In this document: positions 40,672-49,397 of the stretch, in pieces | How the letters are laid out: each line of letters starts with the position of its first letter | Position numbering within the stretch: position 1 is the first letter of the stretch | Origin: Candidatus Saccharimonadota bacterium | GTDB taxonomy: Bacteria; Patescibacteriota; Saccharimonadia; Saccharimonadales; Saccharimonadaceae | NCBI GenBank assembly: GCA_015655045.1 | Contig: JAATFU010000005.1 | Span: 186,001-250,000 of the forward strand | Direction: 5' to 3' | DNA: 64,000 nt | Translations under genes and position numbers: made by a program | The notes under the pieces: model-generated | Told to the model about the DNA's origin: nothing | What the model saw: the letters and a program-made list of their open reading frames with translations, nothing else | The model's database searches: none

Positions 40672-42366
40672 CTAGATTTCGCCAGGCGTGTCAGTTGGTC
40701 GCGCTGATCGTAGTGGCTTCTCTTTGATGGCAATCGTGAGAGCTCCCGCAATACCCACGATCAAGGTAGAGACCAAGAAGATGGTATGGAGACTTTCGCT
40801 AAAGGCATCGACGATCTTCGTGTTGTAGTTATTCTGAATGGTTGTGAACTGCTTCGTCGCAGCGACCTGGGCAGTTGCTGGCAATGTCGTAATACTCTGC
40901 CTGAAGCCATCTGAGATAGCTTGCTTCGTAGCGGGAGCATTGATGTTGAGCAGGGTGTTGGCATCGCTCGTGCTGGTGAGGATCTGGCTGGCAGCCGGAG
41001 ATTGACGAAGCGTTTGAATGTAGGCATCGTCTTTCATATCACCTAGGTGGGTGGCGATCCCAATCGTCAGCAGGCTCCCAAAGATTGCAGTTCCGACAGT
41101 TGAACCGAGGCTTCGGAAAAGCTGGCTCGCACTGGTAGCCGAACCGAGGTCTTTTTGCTCAAATTCGTTTTGAACAGCAATGTTAATGATTGGCAGCGCC
41201 ATCCCGACACCAAGACCGACAAAGACCATGACAATTGCTTCAAACAAGTAGCTCGTGGCAGGAGTTAGGAGGGTAAGCATTGCGAGCGAGCCAGTCATGA
41301 CAACAAAGCCAGAGACGATAATCGCCTTGTACTTCCCAATGCGTGAGACAAGTTGTCCGGTCGAGATACTGGCCGTCATGAGCCCTCCAATGAGTGGCAG
41401 GAGCATCAGACCAGAGGCAGTTGGCGAAGCACCAAAGACTTGTTGATTAAACTGGGTAAGGTATAGGATCGCCCCTAAGAAGGCGGCACCATGCAGCAGG
41501 GCAACAGCCATAATAATTGAGAAGTTACGGTTCTTAAAGAAGGACAGGTTAATAATTGGCTCACTAGCGCGGCGCTCAACGTACAGCAAGGCGGCGAGGG
41601 CTACGGCGATAATGGCGTACATAATAAGACGTAAGCCGAGAAGACTGAGGCCAGTCGCAGAAAGCAGGCCAGCAAAGATCTGATCAGTGTTATCAATGGC
41701 GAGGATCAAGGTGGCGAGGAAAATCGCCACGAGGCCTGCGCCTAGGTAATCAACGCGAGGTTTATTATCGTGCTTAAGTGGTGGACAGAAAATCGCAATA
41801 ATAATGAAGGCAACAATAGCAACTGGCACGTTGATCCAGAACGTCCAACGCCAGTCAGTCGTTAGCCACCCAAAGATACTGTGACCATCGGTTAGGAAAC
41901 CCCCAAGTAGTGGCCCCACGACAGACGCGATACCAAAGACAGCGCCGATCAGACCTTGCCACCGGCCACGTTCGCGAGCAGCGAACAAGTCACCGACAAT
42001 CGTAAAGGCGTTGGCGGTGATGATACCACCACCGATACCCTGCAGGGCGCGGGCCAAGATAAGCATCACAATATTGACGCTGGCACCACTTAAGATCGAG
42101 CCAATCGCAAAGATGGCCACCCCAATCAGTAAGATACGTCGACGACCGAACAGGTCAGAGAGCTTACCAGCAATCGGCACCGTAATGGTGGTGGTGAGCA
42201 GGTAGGCAGTGACAATCCAGCTCAGAGACGAGAAAGCATCAAAGTCTTGCACGATCTTGCCCAGAGCTGTCGCAATAATAGTCTGGTCGAGCGCAACCAA
42301 AAAGAGGCTGGCCATAACAGACAACATAATAATAACTTTGCTTCGAAGGCTTAAGTGGTGGTGCAT
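40672..42366 (-). CDS. MFS multidrug efflux protein, DHA2 (EmrB/QacA) family
   Basis: 564 aa with 14 predicted helices. Motif D1-like LVALDQTIIATALGKIVQDF, motif A LSDLFGRRRILLIG and motif C GPLLGGFLTDG identify the drug:H+ antiporter-2 family. I place the start at 42366, 7 nt after the stop of the AbrB-type regulator gene; an earlier in-frame ATG at 42414 lies inside that gene. Co-transcription with the regulator suggests autoregulated, substrate-responsive expression. Confidence 0.9.
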   Translation of the reverse strand: MHHHLSLRSKVIIMLSVMASLFLVALDQTIIATALGKIVQDFDAFSSLSWIVTAYLLTTTITVPIAGKLSDLFGRRRILLIGVAIFAIGSILSGASVNIVMLILARALQGIGGGIITANAFTIVGDLFAARERGRWQGLIGAVFGIASVVGPLLGGFLTDGHSIFGWLTTDWRWTFWINVPVAIVAFIIIAIFCPPLKHDNKPRVDYLGAGLVAIFLATLILAIDNTDQIFAGLLSATGLSLLGLRLIMYAIIAVALAALLYVERRASEPIINLSFFKNRNFSIIMAVALLHGAAFLGAILYLTQFNQQVFGASPTASGLMLLPLIGGLMTASISTGQLVSRIGKYKAIIVSGFVVMTGSLAMLTLLTPATSYLFEAIVMVFVGLGVGMALPIINIAVQNEFEQKDLGSATSASQLFRSLGSTVGTAIFGSLLTIGIATHLGDMKDDAYIQTLRQSPAASQILTSTSDANTLLNINAPATKQAISDGFRQSITTLPATAQVAATKQFTTIQNNYNTKIVDAFSESLHTIFLVSTLIVGIAGALTIAIKEKPLRSARPTDTPGEI

Positions 42367-42373
42367 AAATTTT

Positions 42374-42610
42374 TTAGTCTTTCTTTGATCGTTTGAATGA
42401 TTTAAATGTTTCAACCTGTATGTTCATTTGCTCAATGAACTGTTCAATCTTATCTTCTTTGAGCAACACAACAACTCCTTTACCAGCGGAACCAGTCACA
42501 TAGAGATGGTCACCCGGTTCTAGACCAAGCGCTTCGCGCGCTTCAGCAGGAATGACAATTTGGCCTTTTGTGCCAATCGTTGCCGTACCGTAGAGTTTCT
42601 TGTCATGCAT
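42374..42610 (-). CDS. SpoVT/AbrB-domain regulator
   Basis: 78 aa: YGTATIGTKGQIVIPAEARE then ALGLEPGDHLYV is a textbook AbrB swapped-hairpin, followed by a short helical tail ending FKSFKRSKKD. TATACT lies further upstream and an AGGGG Shine-Dalgarno precedes the ATG. It heads the operon with the DHA2 transporter and probably regulates it. An antitoxin role is less likely because no toxin gene follows. Confidence 0.9.
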   Translation of the reverse strand: MHDKKLYGTATIGTKGQIVIPAEAREALGLEPGDHLYVTGSAGKGVVVLLKEDKIEQFIEQMNIQVETFKSFKRSKKD

Positions 42611-43760: not shown

Positions 43761-44423
43761 TTAGGCAATCGTTACCCCGGGGTCGTAGTCCCCATCCAAC
43801 AACTTTTCGAGTTTACTCGTATCAACCGTGTAGATCTTATTCTTGGAGACAATCACGTTGGCGGCTTTTAAGCGAAGCAGTTCGTTGGTGGTCGTTTCAC
43901 GCGTAATCCCGATTAAGCCCGCTAGTTCATCCTGTGTAAAGGGAATGGCGATACGAACACGGTCTGGGGCAACGTCTTTCCCGTAGCGCAGGCACAGATA
44001 ATGAAGCATGCCAATGACCTTCAAGTTAGCGCGGGGTTGGCCGAGAGCTTTGAGCTGCAGGCTTGTTCCCACGTAGCCATTGACCTGATGGTCAAGGAAG
44101 ATGCGCGACAAGGCAAGGTTTTGATCAACCGCGTCCAGTAAGGCTTGCTGGTCCATTAGATAGACCACACAATCGGTATGGGCTTCGTAGTAAAACAGCG
44201 TAGTTCTTGTCTTATTAAAGATCCAACCCATAGGAAAGAGTTCGCCAGAGACGGCAAAGGAGATCGAGTTCACTGCCCCATCAGATCCCAGTGAGTACAT
44301 ACGGACCGAGCCGACTTTGACCGCGTAGGCCATATCCGGCTCTTGATCTTGCAGGAGAATCGTCTCGCCCTTTTTATATGCCCGAGTTGGAAACTGGCTA
44401 TAAAATGCACGCAGGATACTCAT
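43761..44423 (-). CDS. Crp/Fnr-family transcription regulator
   Basis: 220 aa: N-terminal cyclic-nucleotide-binding-like domain (KKGETILLQDQEPDMAYAVK, ISFAVSGELFPMGWIF) and C-terminal winged helix (IPFTQDELAGLIGITRETTT then NELLRLKAANVI). No Fe-S cysteine cluster of Fnr type is present, and the cNMP-binding Arg-Ser pair of CRP is not obvious, so the ligand is unknown. An earlier in-frame ATG at 44453 is possible. It lies 69 nt after the GT39 gene stop, so it may be the last gene of the glycan operon and autoregulated through the operator at 49458-49473. Confidence 0.9.
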   Translation of the reverse strand: MSILRAFYSQFPTRAYKKGETILLQDQEPDMAYAVKVGSVRMYSLGSDGAVNSISFAVSGELFPMGWIFNKTRTTLFYYEAHTDCVVYLMDQQALLDAVDQNLALSRIFLDHQVNGYVGTSLQLKALGQPRANLKVIGMLHYLCLRYGKDVAPDRVRIAIPFTQDELAGLIGITRETTTNELLRLKAANVIVSKNKIYTVDTSKLEKLLDGDYDPGVTIA

Positions 44424-44491
44424 ATTGATTTTCCACGCATATCTACTTTTCATTTTACCCTATCCCCCTGCCTCTCGCTAGGCCTGTTTGC

Positions 44492-46015
44492 CTATTTAAT
44501 TGACACCGTTGGATCATATCGAATCTTATACTCGTACACCGTTAGACCTGGTGAGAACTGCCGGTGAGTAAGCTGCTGAAAATGGTTATCATAGTAATCC
44601 TTAATGGCTTGGTTGTAACCCTGATCGTAACTGAGGATCAGCCAGGCGTTTCGGTAGTCAGACACATTTGTCTGGGTTTGCGTGGCGAGTTGCGTGGCAT
44701 CAAACCCTGGCACGGAACCGCTCGCAAAACGATCCCAAATCGGTTGGGTGGTGAGCTTGGCTGGTCCGTGGTAGTAATACTCGATTGGATAGATCGTAAA
44801 GGGAGCGGTGGCAATGATGACGTCTTGAGCTTTTGATTGAGATGACACATAGGCAACGGCTTGCTGGTAGTCCTCCTTGACAGGCGTATTGGGATTAGCG
44901 ATTTGAATCACCAGCAAACCACTAATGAGTATGATGACCACAAGCTGGACCACCCGCTGCACCCGGGGCGGATAAATCGAGATAATCCAGGCAAAGACAA
45001 GGACCAGTGATGGCAGCGAGACAATCAGGTAGCGGCTCAAGAAAAATGGTTTAATGAGCACGCTCACAACAAAGGCGCCAAGGACAGGAAGCACGGCAAG
45101 CATAATGACAAAGACTGAACCTGGGGAGGTTTGCTTTTTGCGTTGCAGGGTGAAAAAGGCAGCTAAAACAAGGATTGGCCAGAGTGAAATAATAACCGTA
45201 TTCAGGCCATCGGATTGAAACCCGAATAAGAACTGGGCGTAGGTGTTAAAGATATCACCGCTTGAGGGGATACCTAAGTAGGGTTGGGTGTTACTCGCAA
45301 GGCCCAACTTATAGACATACCCCAGCCACGGTACGAGTGACCCCACTGATATCACACCTGCAACGATGAATTTCGGTAGCGACCGGACGGGGAAATGTTT
45401 TCGAAAGAACAGATAGAAAATTGCTTCAGTGAGGAGTACAAAGCCGAAGAAATAGTGAGTGTATAGCCCTAATATTGCCACCACGACGTAGAGCACCCAG
45501 TATCGTCCCCGACCTATCTTAAAAATCTGAACAAACAGGATCTGATGAATCACAGTGAGAAAAGCGAGTAAGGCATACATGCGTGCCTCGGCTCCATACC
45601 AGAGCATAAACGGCGAAATCGCCAGTAGCAGCGCAGCAAATAACCCCACGCGACGGCTAAAGATAAGCTTGCCAAGATAGTAGACAGCTGGAATGGTTGC
45701 GACAAAGAAGACCACCGAGAGGTAGCGAGCCGTTGCGATATCATCTCCAAAAAGTATCGTCCAGAATTTTAAGAGCAAATGGTAGAGCGGCACATGAACA
45801 TCTTGGGCCACGAGGTATAACACGCCGGGGACATCGCGGCTAATTTGAAACAAACTCTGCGCTTCATCGAGTCGCAGACTGGTATGCGCAAAGATGAGTA
45901 CACTTAAAAGTGTTGCGAGTCCCATGAGTCCCACTAGCACCCAACCTATTAGAAGGCTTGAATGGCCAGTCGGGCTACTCGATGGTTCAGGCACTCGTCG
46001 AGAATGGACGCTCAT
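44492..46015 (-). CDS. GT39/ArnT-like membrane glycosyltransferase
   Basis: 507 aa with ~11 helices. The first extracytoplasmic loop carries the acidic LRLDEAQSLF motif and HVPLYHLLLKFW, typical of the GT39/GT83 (PMT/ArnT, lipid-linked sugar donor) family, followed by GAEARMYALLAFL. It would transfer sugars from polyprenyl phosphate to an acceptor outside the membrane. Overlaps the GT2 gene by 4 nt (ATGA). The acceptor is unknown; it may glycosylate the S/T-rich protein of the same operon. Confidence 0.85.
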   Translation of the reverse strand: MSVHSRRVPEPSSSPTGHSSLLIGWVLVGLMGLATLLSVLIFAHTSLRLDEAQSLFQISRDVPGVLYLVAQDVHVPLYHLLLKFWTILFGDDIATARYLSVVFFVATIPAVYYLGKLIFSRRVGLFAALLLAISPFMLWYGAEARMYALLAFLTVIHQILFVQIFKIGRGRYWVLYVVVAILGLYTHYFFGFVLLTEAIFYLFFRKHFPVRSLPKFIVAGVISVGSLVPWLGYVYKLGLASNTQPYLGIPSSGDIFNTYAQFLFGFQSDGLNTVIISLWPILVLAAFFTLQRKKQTSPGSVFVIMLAVLPVLGAFVVSVLIKPFFLSRYLIVSLPSLVLVFAWIISIYPPRVQRVVQLVVIILISGLLVIQIANPNTPVKEDYQQAVAYVSSQSKAQDVIIATAPFTIYPIEYYYHGPAKLTTQPIWDRFASGSVPGFDATQLATQTQTNVSDYRNAWLILSYDQGYNQAIKDYYDNHFQQLTHRQFSPGLTVYEYKIRYDPTVSIK

Positions 46016-47526
46016 GAGTGTGCCTCTTCAATTGCCTCGGTGACGCCGACCGTGTCTTCGCGTGGCACCGTTGTTTTTTGAAAGGCCGCACTTATAAATG
46101 GGACGAAGCTGGCTACATATACTAGTGCCCACGCGGCGTTGGATAAGATTGATGGATTAAGTCCTTCGCGCAGGGCCCCCACCAGCACTCCGATCCCCAC
46201 TAACACGATATACACTATATGCGGCGCGACCAAGTAGCCATGGTTACCGGCTACTGCCCGTTTTGAGGTCACGACAAAGCCCGACTTCTTACCTCGAATG
46301 ATCTGCCAAATCGCTTGCAAATGAATCGGAAAAGCGCTCAAACTGAATGACAGCGCGCGGAAGGTATACGAAAAGCCACTGGTAAGTTGCACAGTATATA
46401 AGACCACAAAGATATACGGTAAGAAGAATAGGGCGAGAGTCATCGTTCCAATCGTCAGGGGCTCAAGACCAGTAAAGAAATAAATTAGTGGCAGGAGTGC
46501 GTTGGCAAACACGATCAGACCAGAAAGGTAAAAGCTGGCTGAGGAGAGATATTGAATACGCTGGCTCACGGTTAATCCCCGACGAAACAACGGATTATAT
46601 TTAAAGATCACTTCGAGACTGCCCCGAGTCCAGCGAAATTGCTGTTTATAGTAGGAGAGAAAGTCCTCTGGTGCCAACCCCTCGGCCAGGACTTCACTCA
46701 CGTAGACCGAGGCCCATTTTTTCTGGTGAATGAGCAGTGAGGTCAAGAAATCCTCAGCGATACTACATTCACTCATACCCCCCACTTGGGTAAGCGCACT
46801 GCGACGAATAATCATATTGGTGCCACACATGAAGGCCGAGTTACTCCCGTCTTTACCCCGACAGATCGCTCCAAAGAAAAGTTCTTGTTGTTCCCAGGCT
46901 CCTCCTGTTACGAGGTTCTGGGCGTAGTTCTTATAAAACTGTGGTGATTGCACAAAGCCCACTTGCGGATCGACGAAGTATCCCATCATGGCGCGAAGGA
47001 AATGGGGCTTGGGAATATGATCGGCATCAAAGACGGCGATAAAGGGCTCGTCTGTCTGGGAGAGGGCGTGGTTAATATTGCCGGCTTTTGCTCCACCTGG
47101 CACTGTTCGGGTCAGACAGCGAATACCATACTGCTCGGCAATCGCTTCTGCCTCGCGCCAGTTCTCTCGCCCCGCAACCAACCCATCATTGAGGATATAG
47201 ACGTGAGCTTCAGGATAGTCCATCGCCAGTACTCCCCGTACGGTCGCCTCGACGATATCAGCTGGCTCTCCTGTCACTGTAATATACACCGCCACAGGAG
47301 GTTGGAACTGTCGGTTAAAACGATGGAGTCGTCGACGTGGCCAGACACTATGGACGTAGCCTAAGGCTTGCCAGAGATGGAATACCTCTGCGACAATTAA
47401 GACGCCGAATAAGATAGGGTTTCCAATCGGAAAGAAACAGGCGATACAAATGAAATAGGCAATCGCTAGGCTAATGTTCAGCAGTAGGAAAACGCGGGTC
47501 GGCACGGCATGAGGTACTCTACGCAT
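46012..47526 (-). CDS. Cellulose-synthase-like GT2 (BcsA-type processive glycosyltransferase)
   Basis: 504 aa. Two N-terminal helices, a cytosolic GT-A domain with YILNDG, VFDADHIPKPHFL, the acceptor ED in SIAEDFLTSL and QQFRWTRGSLEV (QxxRW), then four to five C-terminal helices forming the channel. This is the D,D,D,QxxRW layout of processive beta-glycan synthases. The PilZ domain that makes BcsA respond to c-di-GMP is absent. Placed between GH8 and GT39, which supports synthesis of a beta-1,4-type glucan or related glycan. AAGGAG Shine-Dalgarno. Confidence 0.9.
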   Translation of the reverse strand: MRRVPHAVPTRVFLLLNISLAIAYFICIACFFPIGNPILFGVLIVAEVFHLWQALGYVHSVWPRRRLHRFNRQFQPPVAVYITVTGEPADIVEATVRGVLAMDYPEAHVYILNDGLVAGRENWREAEAIAEQYGIRCLTRTVPGGAKAGNINHALSQTDEPFIAVFDADHIPKPHFLRAMMGYFVDPQVGFVQSPQFYKNYAQNLVTGGAWEQQELFFGAICRGKDGSNSAFMCGTNMIIRRSALTQVGGMSECSIAEDFLTSLLIHQKKWASVYVSEVLAEGLAPEDFLSYYKQQFRWTRGSLEVIFKYNPLFRRGLTVSQRIQYLSSASFYLSGLIVFANALLPLIYFFTGLEPLTIGTMTLALFFLPYIFVVLYTVQLTSGFSYTFRALSFSLSAFPIHLQAIWQIIRGKKSGFVVTSKRAVAGNHGYLVAPHIVYIVLVGIGVLVGALREGLNPSILSNAAWALVYVASFVPFISAAFQKTTVPREDTVGVTEAIEEAHS

Positions 47527-47540
47527 GGGGCATTCACTCC

Positions 47541-48740
47541 TTAGGTGGTTAGATTATCAAGTTGATCAGTATAGAGAGCCATGCCAAACCAGGCCCAGTT
47601 ATCACTGTAGTAGCTCATAGGCTGGGACCAGGTATTGCTATCAGCATCATATAAGCTCACCAGTTTTGTCTGGTAGATAGTGGCGGCCGCGTGGGGGTCA
47701 ACAACTTTAAAATACCCAATGGCGGTACCGTAGGCTTCAGGTGGTTCATCCCCACTTTTAATCGTGCCGTCATGGCCATAAATGGCGGCAAGCTTACCTG
47801 TCTGTTGCCACTGCGTAGACAAAAAGGACATCCGTTGAAGGGTTGTTTTGGCTCGTGGGTCTTTATTCCACGCATAATCAAGTGCGAGCCGCCAGGTCGT
47901 CCGATTGGCATCATACCCATAATTAGTCGTAAGATTCGTACTACGTTCCGGCGCCCGAATTGCTCCCGTTTGCTTATTGAGTAGCAGCCAGTCGGGAGGT
48001 AGTCCCACTGAGGTTGCTGTATCCAACTTATCATCGAGAGCGCGGTTCATCAGACTATAGGCTGAGTCAACGACGGCGGACCAGTTGTGGCTCGTGTCGA
48101 GCTTGGCAAAAATGCGGTAGGTATAAGGTGCCATATACGAAAGATTCATGACCGCATCTTGAGAGGAATCCTTTTCAAGGTTATTAGACGCAAGATACGG
48201 TGTCCCTGCTACCGAAATTACCTCTTGTTGCCAAATCTGGGAGATGATTTGCTTAGCTGCCTGCAAATACGTCGCGTCTTGCCAGCGGTTGGCTGCCATG
48301 GTGAGAGCAAAGGCAATATCACTATCGGCGTCTGAAGCGGTATTGTTGCCGCCTTGATCAGTGAGCACTCCATAGCTCCCATCGGCTTTTTGGCCCCACT
48401 TCCAGGCAAACAAACTATCTTGGCGTTGCAGATGGCCCTTTGTCCAATCCCAAGTAGCATCAAAGGTAGCTTTATCACTTTGCCATACAGCCCGAAGCAT
48501 CGTATAGCTTTGCCCCTCAGACGTGGTAATGTTGTTTGACTGCTTATCGAGTGTCCGACCAGTTGAGGATTCCCAGTACTCCTGTTTGTAGCTATTCCAT
48601 AAGCCAGAAAGCATCGTACGGTCAGCAAAAACAGGGGTCTCGTCGGCCTTATCACTACTTCGAAAGAGTGCAAAGCCACCGAGGGTAAGTGCGGCTATAA
48701 CGAGAACAACGGCTAGAAGTCGAAGAGTAAATTTAATAAT
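47541..48740 (-). CDS. GH8 family endoglucanase-like protein, membrane-anchored, apparent AUU start
   Basis: The GH8 domain has TTSEGQSYTMLRAVW (general-acid Glu) and ASDADSDIAFALTMAA (family signature), as in BcsZ/CelY, which trim cellulose during export. The first in-frame ATG (48614) falls at the start of the catalytic domain. Reading upstream adds 42 residues with an ideal signal anchor (FTLRLLAVVLVIAALTLGGF) up to a stop at 48746. In that stretch the only plausible initiation codons are ATT ATT (48740, 48737), just after GAGGTG. I therefore infer AUU initiation, giving ~400 aa. It follows the S/T-rich gene after 18 nt. Confidence 0.85.
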   Translation of the reverse strand: MIKFTLRLLAVVLVIAALTLGGFALFRSSDKADETPVFADRTMLSGLWNSYKQEYWESSTGRTLDKQSNNITTSEGQSYTMLRAVWQSDKATFDATWDWTKGHLQRQDSLFAWKWGQKADGSYGVLTDQGGNNTASDADSDIAFALTMAANRWQDATYLQAAKQIISQIWQQEVISVAGTPYLASNNLEKDSSQDAVMNLSYMAPYTYRIFAKLDTSHNWSAVVDSAYSLMNRALDDKLDTATSVGLPPDWLLLNKQTGAIRAPERSTNLTTNYGYDANRTTWRLALDYAWNKDPRAKTTLQRMSFLSTQWQQTGKLAAIYGHDGTIKSGDEPPEAYGTAIGYFKVVDPHAAATIYQTKLVSLYDADSNTWSQPMSYYSDNWAWFGMALYTDQLDNLTT

Positions 48741-48758
48741 TGCACCTCAGTCTTTCCG

Positions 48759-49397
48759 TTAAGGGATATAGCGAATCGCAATAGGACGTGGTTGCGCTAG
48801 CTTGTAGGCCGGGGTTCGCGCTGGTAACTGGGTGGCGCCGTAAAGCAACACCCCTATAAGTCCCATAACTGCCGCAGCCTGGTAGAGGAGCTGGGCGGTA
48901 TGGACATCTAGTTTATGCGATTGGTACACGACGTGGCTGGTGGCCGTCGTTGATTGCGCTTTGGCGGTCGCAGTCACCTCAGGAGCGGTATCAACTGGCA
49001 CGGGAGCTGTTGGCGTAGGTTGCGACTGAGGCGTCACTGTGGTGGAAGCGGACACGGACGTCACAGCTGGCGCGGCACCCGGCTGAACCGATTGACTGGC
49101 GGGGGGTGGGGCGCTCGGACGAGAAGAAGGTGTGGTGGTGGAAGAAGCTGGCTGCTTCGTTGTCGGAGTCGTCTTACTTGATGAGGTTGTTTGACGGCTC
49201 TTGGTTTGAGTTGTGTGCGTTTGATTTCTTGTCATACTTGATTGACCACCAAAACTTCGGTCATAGCCGGTTGGGTATGACACCGCATTGGTCACCAAGG
49301 CTGGTACGGCACCAATGAGGACAATGCCCCCAACGACGAGGCCGCTTATGAGCCTCGTTGAACGTCTCCGTAATAGGTGAGTTCGTTGTAGTTTCAT
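48759..49397 (-). CDS. Secreted Ser/Thr/Pro-rich protein with C-terminal helix
   Basis: 212 aa: N-terminal signal (basic start, LISGLVVGGIVLIGAVPALV), a motif SYPTGYDRSFGG, ~100 residues of Thr/Ser/Pro/Gln low complexity, then a membrane helix (LLYQAAAVMGLIGVLLYGAT) and a short end. It is the first gene of the glycan operon. The stalk could span the wall or be O-glycosylated by the GT39 enzyme encoded downstream. GGGAG Shine-Dalgarno; promoter with Crp/Fnr-type operator upstream. Confidence 0.75.
   Translation of the reverse strand: MKLQRTHLLRRRSTRLISGLVVGGIVLIGAVPALVTNAVSYPTGYDRSFGGQSSMTRNQTHTTQTKSRQTTSSSKTTPTTKQPASSTTTPSSRPSAPPPASQSVQPGAAPAVTSVSASTTVTPQSQPTPTAPVPVDTAPEVTATAKAQSTTATSHVVYQSHKLDVHTAQLLYQAAAVMGLIGVLLYGATQLPARTPAYKLAQPRPIAIRYIP

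Follow-up and report, generated by a model that had tools for sequence, protein, structure and literature searches.

A conserved GH8-GT2-PMT_2 gene cassette of CPR bacteria and Actinobacteria, with a candidate role in surface polysaccharide synthesis

The stretch of DNA analyzed here (the window) comprises 64,000 nucleotides from a saccharibacterial genome of 848 kb, assembled to 99% completeness in 8 contigs; the bacterium that carries it is probably host-dependent. In the analysis its lineage was read from the nearest relatives, several of them recorded as Saccharibacteria. The genes considered are listed below in order of transcription, with the evidence for each assignment in parentheses.

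48759..49397, minus strand: S/T-rich type I membrane protein, 212 aa (ORF, composition, TM segments)
47541..~48740, minus strand: GH8 glycosidase of the BcsZ/endoglucanase kind with an N-terminal membrane anchor (Pfam/NCBIfam)
46012..47526, minus strand: BcsA-like GT2 of 504 aa without PilZ, putatively a processive synthase and channel for a beta-glycan (Pfam/NCBIfam, model)
44492..46015, minus strand: GT-C glycosyltransferase of the PMT_2/GT39 type, 507 aa, without a MIR domain (Pfam, model)
43761..44453, minus strand: Crp/Fnr-family regulator, 38 nt downstream of PMT_2 and outside 44492-49397 (Pfam)

Successive intergenic gaps are about 18, 14, -4 and 38 nt, the negative value being a 4-nt overlap of GT2 and PMT_2. 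GH8, GT2, PMT_2 and the Crp/Fnr regulator could be assigned to their families with confidence (Pfam/NCBIfam). A preliminary description had placed all five genes in 44492-49397; four of them are real genes within it, on the minus strand and with operon spacing, whereas the regulator gene falls outside. An MFS exporter and a MazE/AbrB-like gene (window positions 40672-42610) lie near the cassette and are found likewise at several loci of the window clade (L032, L033, L040, L052 and L103).

The GH8 protein was matched by Pfam/NCBIfam at 4e-42 and by the BcsZ model at 1e-39, the latter under its curated cut-off. Its ATG-started ORF spans 47541-48614, but the frame stays open upstream and encodes an N-terminal TM anchor, so that the ATG at 48614 is too late to be the start. 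Translation probably begins at an ATT at 48740 or 48737, behind GAGGTG, the sole plausible start, and in the close relatives examined GH8 starts with ATG at about the same point. ATT is a rare start codon, and the window's ATT (48735-48740) is either a true rare start or a base error. Among 62 homologs, the catalytic acid Glu was present in 61 and the base position was Asp in 56 (Glu in 5); 61 of the 62 carried an N-terminal hydrophobic anchor. The catalytic Glu and Asp align with those of CelA (1cem), where they act as acid and base, respectively.

To define the neighborhood in other genomes, GT2 alone was used as the query. Among 84,980 species genomes it recovered 65 loci, and among 393 genomes belonging to the class it recovered, besides the window, 10 close relatives with 54-71% identity; once duplicates had been dropped along with three remote loci, 68 loci with the cassette were left. 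GH8 adjoins GT2 in 65 of these and PMT_2 in 66, and every locus lacking GH8 or PMT_2 sits at a contig end. The order GH8-GT2-PMT_2 is nearly universal (GH8-PMT_2-GT2 in three loci). Within the class, only 10 of the 393 genomes had GH8, and each of these carries the cassette. Pairwise distances of GT2 and PMT_2 correlate with r 0.91, from which it follows that the two genes were inherited together, and the three genes stay adjacent in lineages whose GT2 identity falls to about 43%. By synteny in 68 loci and by co-occurrence of GH8 with GT2, the association is far beyond chance. A grouping of carbohydrate genes that is catabolic or accidental, with no common task, is very improbable: GH8 and GH6 families do occur in cellulose degraders too, but adjacency in 65-66 of 68 loci at such divergence and the co-inheritance of GT2 with PMT_2 speak against it. 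A GH8 of the catabolic chitosan or xylan type, which the preliminary description had named as evidence against its reading, was not found; the enzyme is of the BcsZ/endoglucanase kind and its pairing with the synthase is borne out, as is the membership of the GT-C (GT39) enzyme in the unit.

The main result is that the window operon is one copy of a widespread three-gene core, GH8-GT2-PMT_2. Of the five-gene order proposed earlier, it is this core that recurs in other genomes; the S/T-rich protein and the Crp/Fnr regulator are not part of it. Carriers include many CPR lineages and some Actinobacteria, among them cultured Geodermatophilus, Klenkia and Modestobacter, in which the product is directly testable. 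A search of the openly accessible literature turned up no description of the cassette in CPR bacteria or Actinobacteria, and the cassette is apparently undescribed so far. A second cellulose-synthase-like GT2 clade (L041-L048; ~35% identity), common in Saccharibacteria, was set aside as a cassette member, as neither GH8 nor PMT_2 was found in any of the 10 loci examined. GT2 is broken into two or more frames in L040 (G142), L109, L103, L106, L107 and L110, and PMT_2 also in L107, through either decay or assembly errors.

The GT2 protein scored 281 bits against the CelA model TIGR03030, below its curated cut-off of 699 bits. A search of PDB sequences with the A1 profile gave no match. The structure model (pLDDT 91.8) found BcsA as its best match (Z 39.4, rmsd 2.5, 479 residues), with the superposition spanning almost the full length, and the DAD, ED and QxxRW motifs and the FxVTxK gating loop were invariant in 61 GT2 sequences. 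Grouping with non-processive enzymes, which would have told against the preliminary description, was not observed. From fold and genomic context, it is very likely that GT2 synthesizes a polymer processively and exports it. At the aligned positions of the family, BcsA Y149 is replaced by C, A or T, N150 by G in 60 of 61 sequences and D179 by N in 61 of 61; where BcsA has the first D of its DDG, each of the 61 has N, and some channel residues also differ from BcsA. In BcsA-UDP structures, Y149 and D179 lie in the uracil site. Because channel residues and those aligned with the uracil site are altered, the donor or the polymer may differ from cellulose.

No PilZ domain was found in the GT2 protein or in the source genome, and no GGDEF domain in the source genome, by profile searches at the sensitivity used in which the controls matched. 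BcsB (PF03170) was found in 0 of 11 cassette carriers, while the E. coli and B. subtilis controls matched. The earlier characterization of a BcsA-like synthase without PilZ thus holds for the 504-aa protein, with BcsA fold and motifs kept, and the reported absence of BcsB and PilZ extends genome-wide at this sensitivity. Its expectation that c-di-GMP control is lacking agrees with these searches, in which neither PilZ nor GGDEF gave any sign of such control. In 4 of 5 window-clade genomes, one of the few Crp/Fnr genes is located no more than about 4 kb from the cassette, on varying side and strand; no such gene was found near the cassette in other carriers. It is a clade-level neighbor outside the conserved core, although from its proximity in the window clade regulation of the cassette by the Crp/Fnr protein is plausible.

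PMT_2 was matched by Pfam at 6.5e-13 with no other domain at E 0.01; in particular, the MIR domain of eukaryotic PMTs was not found at this threshold. The D-E motif of the first loop (D50-E51) was invariant in 49 sequences. In the structure model (pLDDT 92.9), the closest folds were the protein O-mannosyltransferases Pmt4 (Z 28.8, rmsd 3.5 over 338) and Pmt1-Pmt2, with oligosaccharyltransferases and ArnT (Z 26.5) close behind. The S/T-rich protein consists of a signal/TM segment, an S/T/P-rich ectodomain of ~110 residues (46 S/T in residues 46-155), a C-terminal TM segment and a short basic tail, and no Pfam family matched it. HMM searches placed it directly upstream of GH8 in 7 loci of the window clade. 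An iterated C-terminal HMM drifted to N-termini and was redone on C-termini; the redone model was significant only in the window clade, and several of its best sub-threshold matches lay directly upstream of GH8. ORFs that combine S/T/P-rich composition with a C-terminal TM segment accounted for 18 of 63 immediately upstream of GH8 and 63 of 3595 elsewhere, an enrichment whose p-value overstates independence, since the loci are related.

These data bear on the acceptor of PMT_2. In the preliminary description, the enzyme O-mannosylates the S/T-rich membrane protein, and the resulting glycoprotein anchors or primes the surface polymer. Eukaryotic protein O-mannosyltransferases act on S/T-rich regions, and this reading draws on their being nearest in fold and on the S/T-rich protein that is encoded immediately before GH8 throughout the window clade's examined loci and in some other lineages. 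Against it, the model scores nearly as well with ArnT and the ALG enzymes, whose acceptors are lipids or glycans, the MIR domain is missing, and no S/T-rich neighbor was found in the loci of Actinobacteria and WWE3, which retain PMT_2. The S/T-rich protein itself is thus confirmed, but it recurs in only part of the loci, and for this reason the constant job of PMT_2 is more likely decoration of the polymer. Judged by context and fold, the chance that the GT-C enzyme decorates the polymer is about even, and decoration of the S/T-rich protein in its place is rather unlikely; the protein is probably a further glycosylated surface partner.

Genes near the cassette point to the sugars involved. A DPM1-like GT2 was found near 39 of the cassettes, and 16 have a GtrA protein nearby; such proteins would be expected to supply and carry a polyprenyl-phosphate sugar for the GT-C enzyme. 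The source genome encodes an ArnC/PgfS-like polyprenyl-P glycosyltransferase. A GH6 protein with an EPD motif occurs near 25 cassettes, including four of Geodermatophilus, and GH113 (beta-mannanase family) near about eight. GH6 enzymes are beta-1,4-glucanases, and their presence near 25 cassettes favors beta-1,4-glucan. First GH113 counts were discarded, as a 'WWP' domain present in both families had led the GH113 HMM to match GH6 proteins. At L054, L057, L037, L072, L076, L083 and L091, the GH6 and GH113 proteins near the cassette carry this extra domain, with the motif (I/V)(D/E)(I/V)WWP; Pfam named no domain there in two proteins scanned, and it is perhaps a carbohydrate-binding module.

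On genomic context and fold, the product is probably a beta-1,4-glucan. It is unlikely to be a GlcNAc polymer, or else a beta-mannan or glucomannan with GDP-sugars as donors. Such an alternative would suit the altered residues at the positions of the BcsA uracil site, the GH113 genes near some loci and the enzyme set of the source genome, in which searches with TIGR01099 and PF00483 for GalU as donor source returned no GalU, despite 99% completeness in 8 contigs, and GDP-mannose pyrophosphorylase, with an adjacent HAD-family gene, as the only PF00483 enzyme type. A PF01704 search gave no match even in the controls and so carries no information on GalU. Against these other polymers stand the BcsZ-kind GH8 in every complete locus, the GH6 proteins, and GalU-like genes in 10 of 10 other carriers; the lack of GalU could reflect a gap in the assembly, a real loss or the use of a different donor.

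Taken as a whole, the operon is somewhat better explained than not as a self-contained, probably c-di-GMP-independent machine for a decorated beta-1,4-glycan at the surface of a single-membrane cell. GT2, with its BcsA fold, would polymerize a glycan with beta-1,4 linkages (most likely a glucan) and also provide the channel through which the chain is extruded. GH8, anchored in the membrane, would trim the emerging chain as BcsZ does, and PMT_2, fed by a polyprenyl-phosphate sugar that is probably mannose, would add sugars to the outward-facing polymer. For the identity of the polymer, the donor sugar and the acceptor of the GT-C enzyme, these assignments follow from gene neighborhood and predicted fold. 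Host attachment by way of the polymer is a candidate role suggested in the preliminary description.

CPR bacteria synthesize little themselves, and knowledge of their surface polymers is sparse. The cassette shares with the BcsA-BcsB-BcsZ operons of Proteobacteria a BcsA-type processive GT2 with gating loop and a partner gene for a GH8 of the BcsZ type. It differs from them in the lack of PilZ and BcsB, with GGDEF not found in the source genome, in having a GT-C enzyme as its constant third member and in belonging to single-membrane cells; by the two tested features, PilZ and BcsB, it is not a Bcs system. PMT_2 has the GT-C fold and first-loop D-E motif in common with GT39 protein O-mannosyltransferases and ArnT, but it lacks the MIR domain of the former and is tied to a polysaccharide synthase gene. 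In Streptomyces, CslA-GlxA-CslZ provides the core synthase and glucanase of a Gram-positive, with, as in the cassette, a synthase of only distant identity to BcsA, and with a radical copper oxidase (GlxA) as partner and stimulation by c-di-GMP (PMC11022532). The conserved neighbor in the cassette is instead a GT-C enzyme and the adjacent hydrolase is GH8; on inspection of the recurrent neighbors, GlxA was not recognized. In Clostridia, CcsZABHI is a Gram-positive cellulose locus of mosaic make-up, in which synthase and hydrolase are combined with non-homologous partners (PMC7710045), the hydrolase being GH5 (PMC9693552); GH5, CBM-type CcsB and O-acetylation proteins were not seen among the recurrent cassette neighbors. 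In both systems, as in the cassette, the synthase is accompanied by a hydrolase and by a partner that is non-homologous. Next to BcsAB, CslA-GlxA and CcsAB, the cassette would constitute a fourth architecture. Tentatively, it may be a new class of machine for polysaccharides: a BcsA-like synthase paired with an obligate GT-C enzyme in place of BcsB, GlxA or CcsB would make a side-chain-decorated beta-1,4-glycan, and the genes would have moved between Saccharibacteria and actinobacteria.

Rooting of the GT2 tree groups the cassettes of actinobacteria in a single clade (100/100), nested in a clade with five saccharibacterial cassettes (100/99), and the window cassette belongs to a second saccharibacterial lineage. 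A topology with the actinobacteria on the side of the outgroup, apart from every CPR cassette, was rejected (p-AU 0.025). The nesting of actinobacterial within saccharibacterial cassettes implies transfer across phyla. Actinobacteria are the phylum of the known Saccharibacteria hosts, and the cassette is an apparent example of genes exchanged by Saccharibacteria with this phylum. The tree suits a transfer from Saccharibacteria to Geodermatophilaceae and relatives, with direction the less certain part. One further locus, L052, titled Chloroflexi bacterium PMG_070, has a cassette and neighborhood of saccharibacterial type with 69% GT2 identity and is probably a mislabeled bin.
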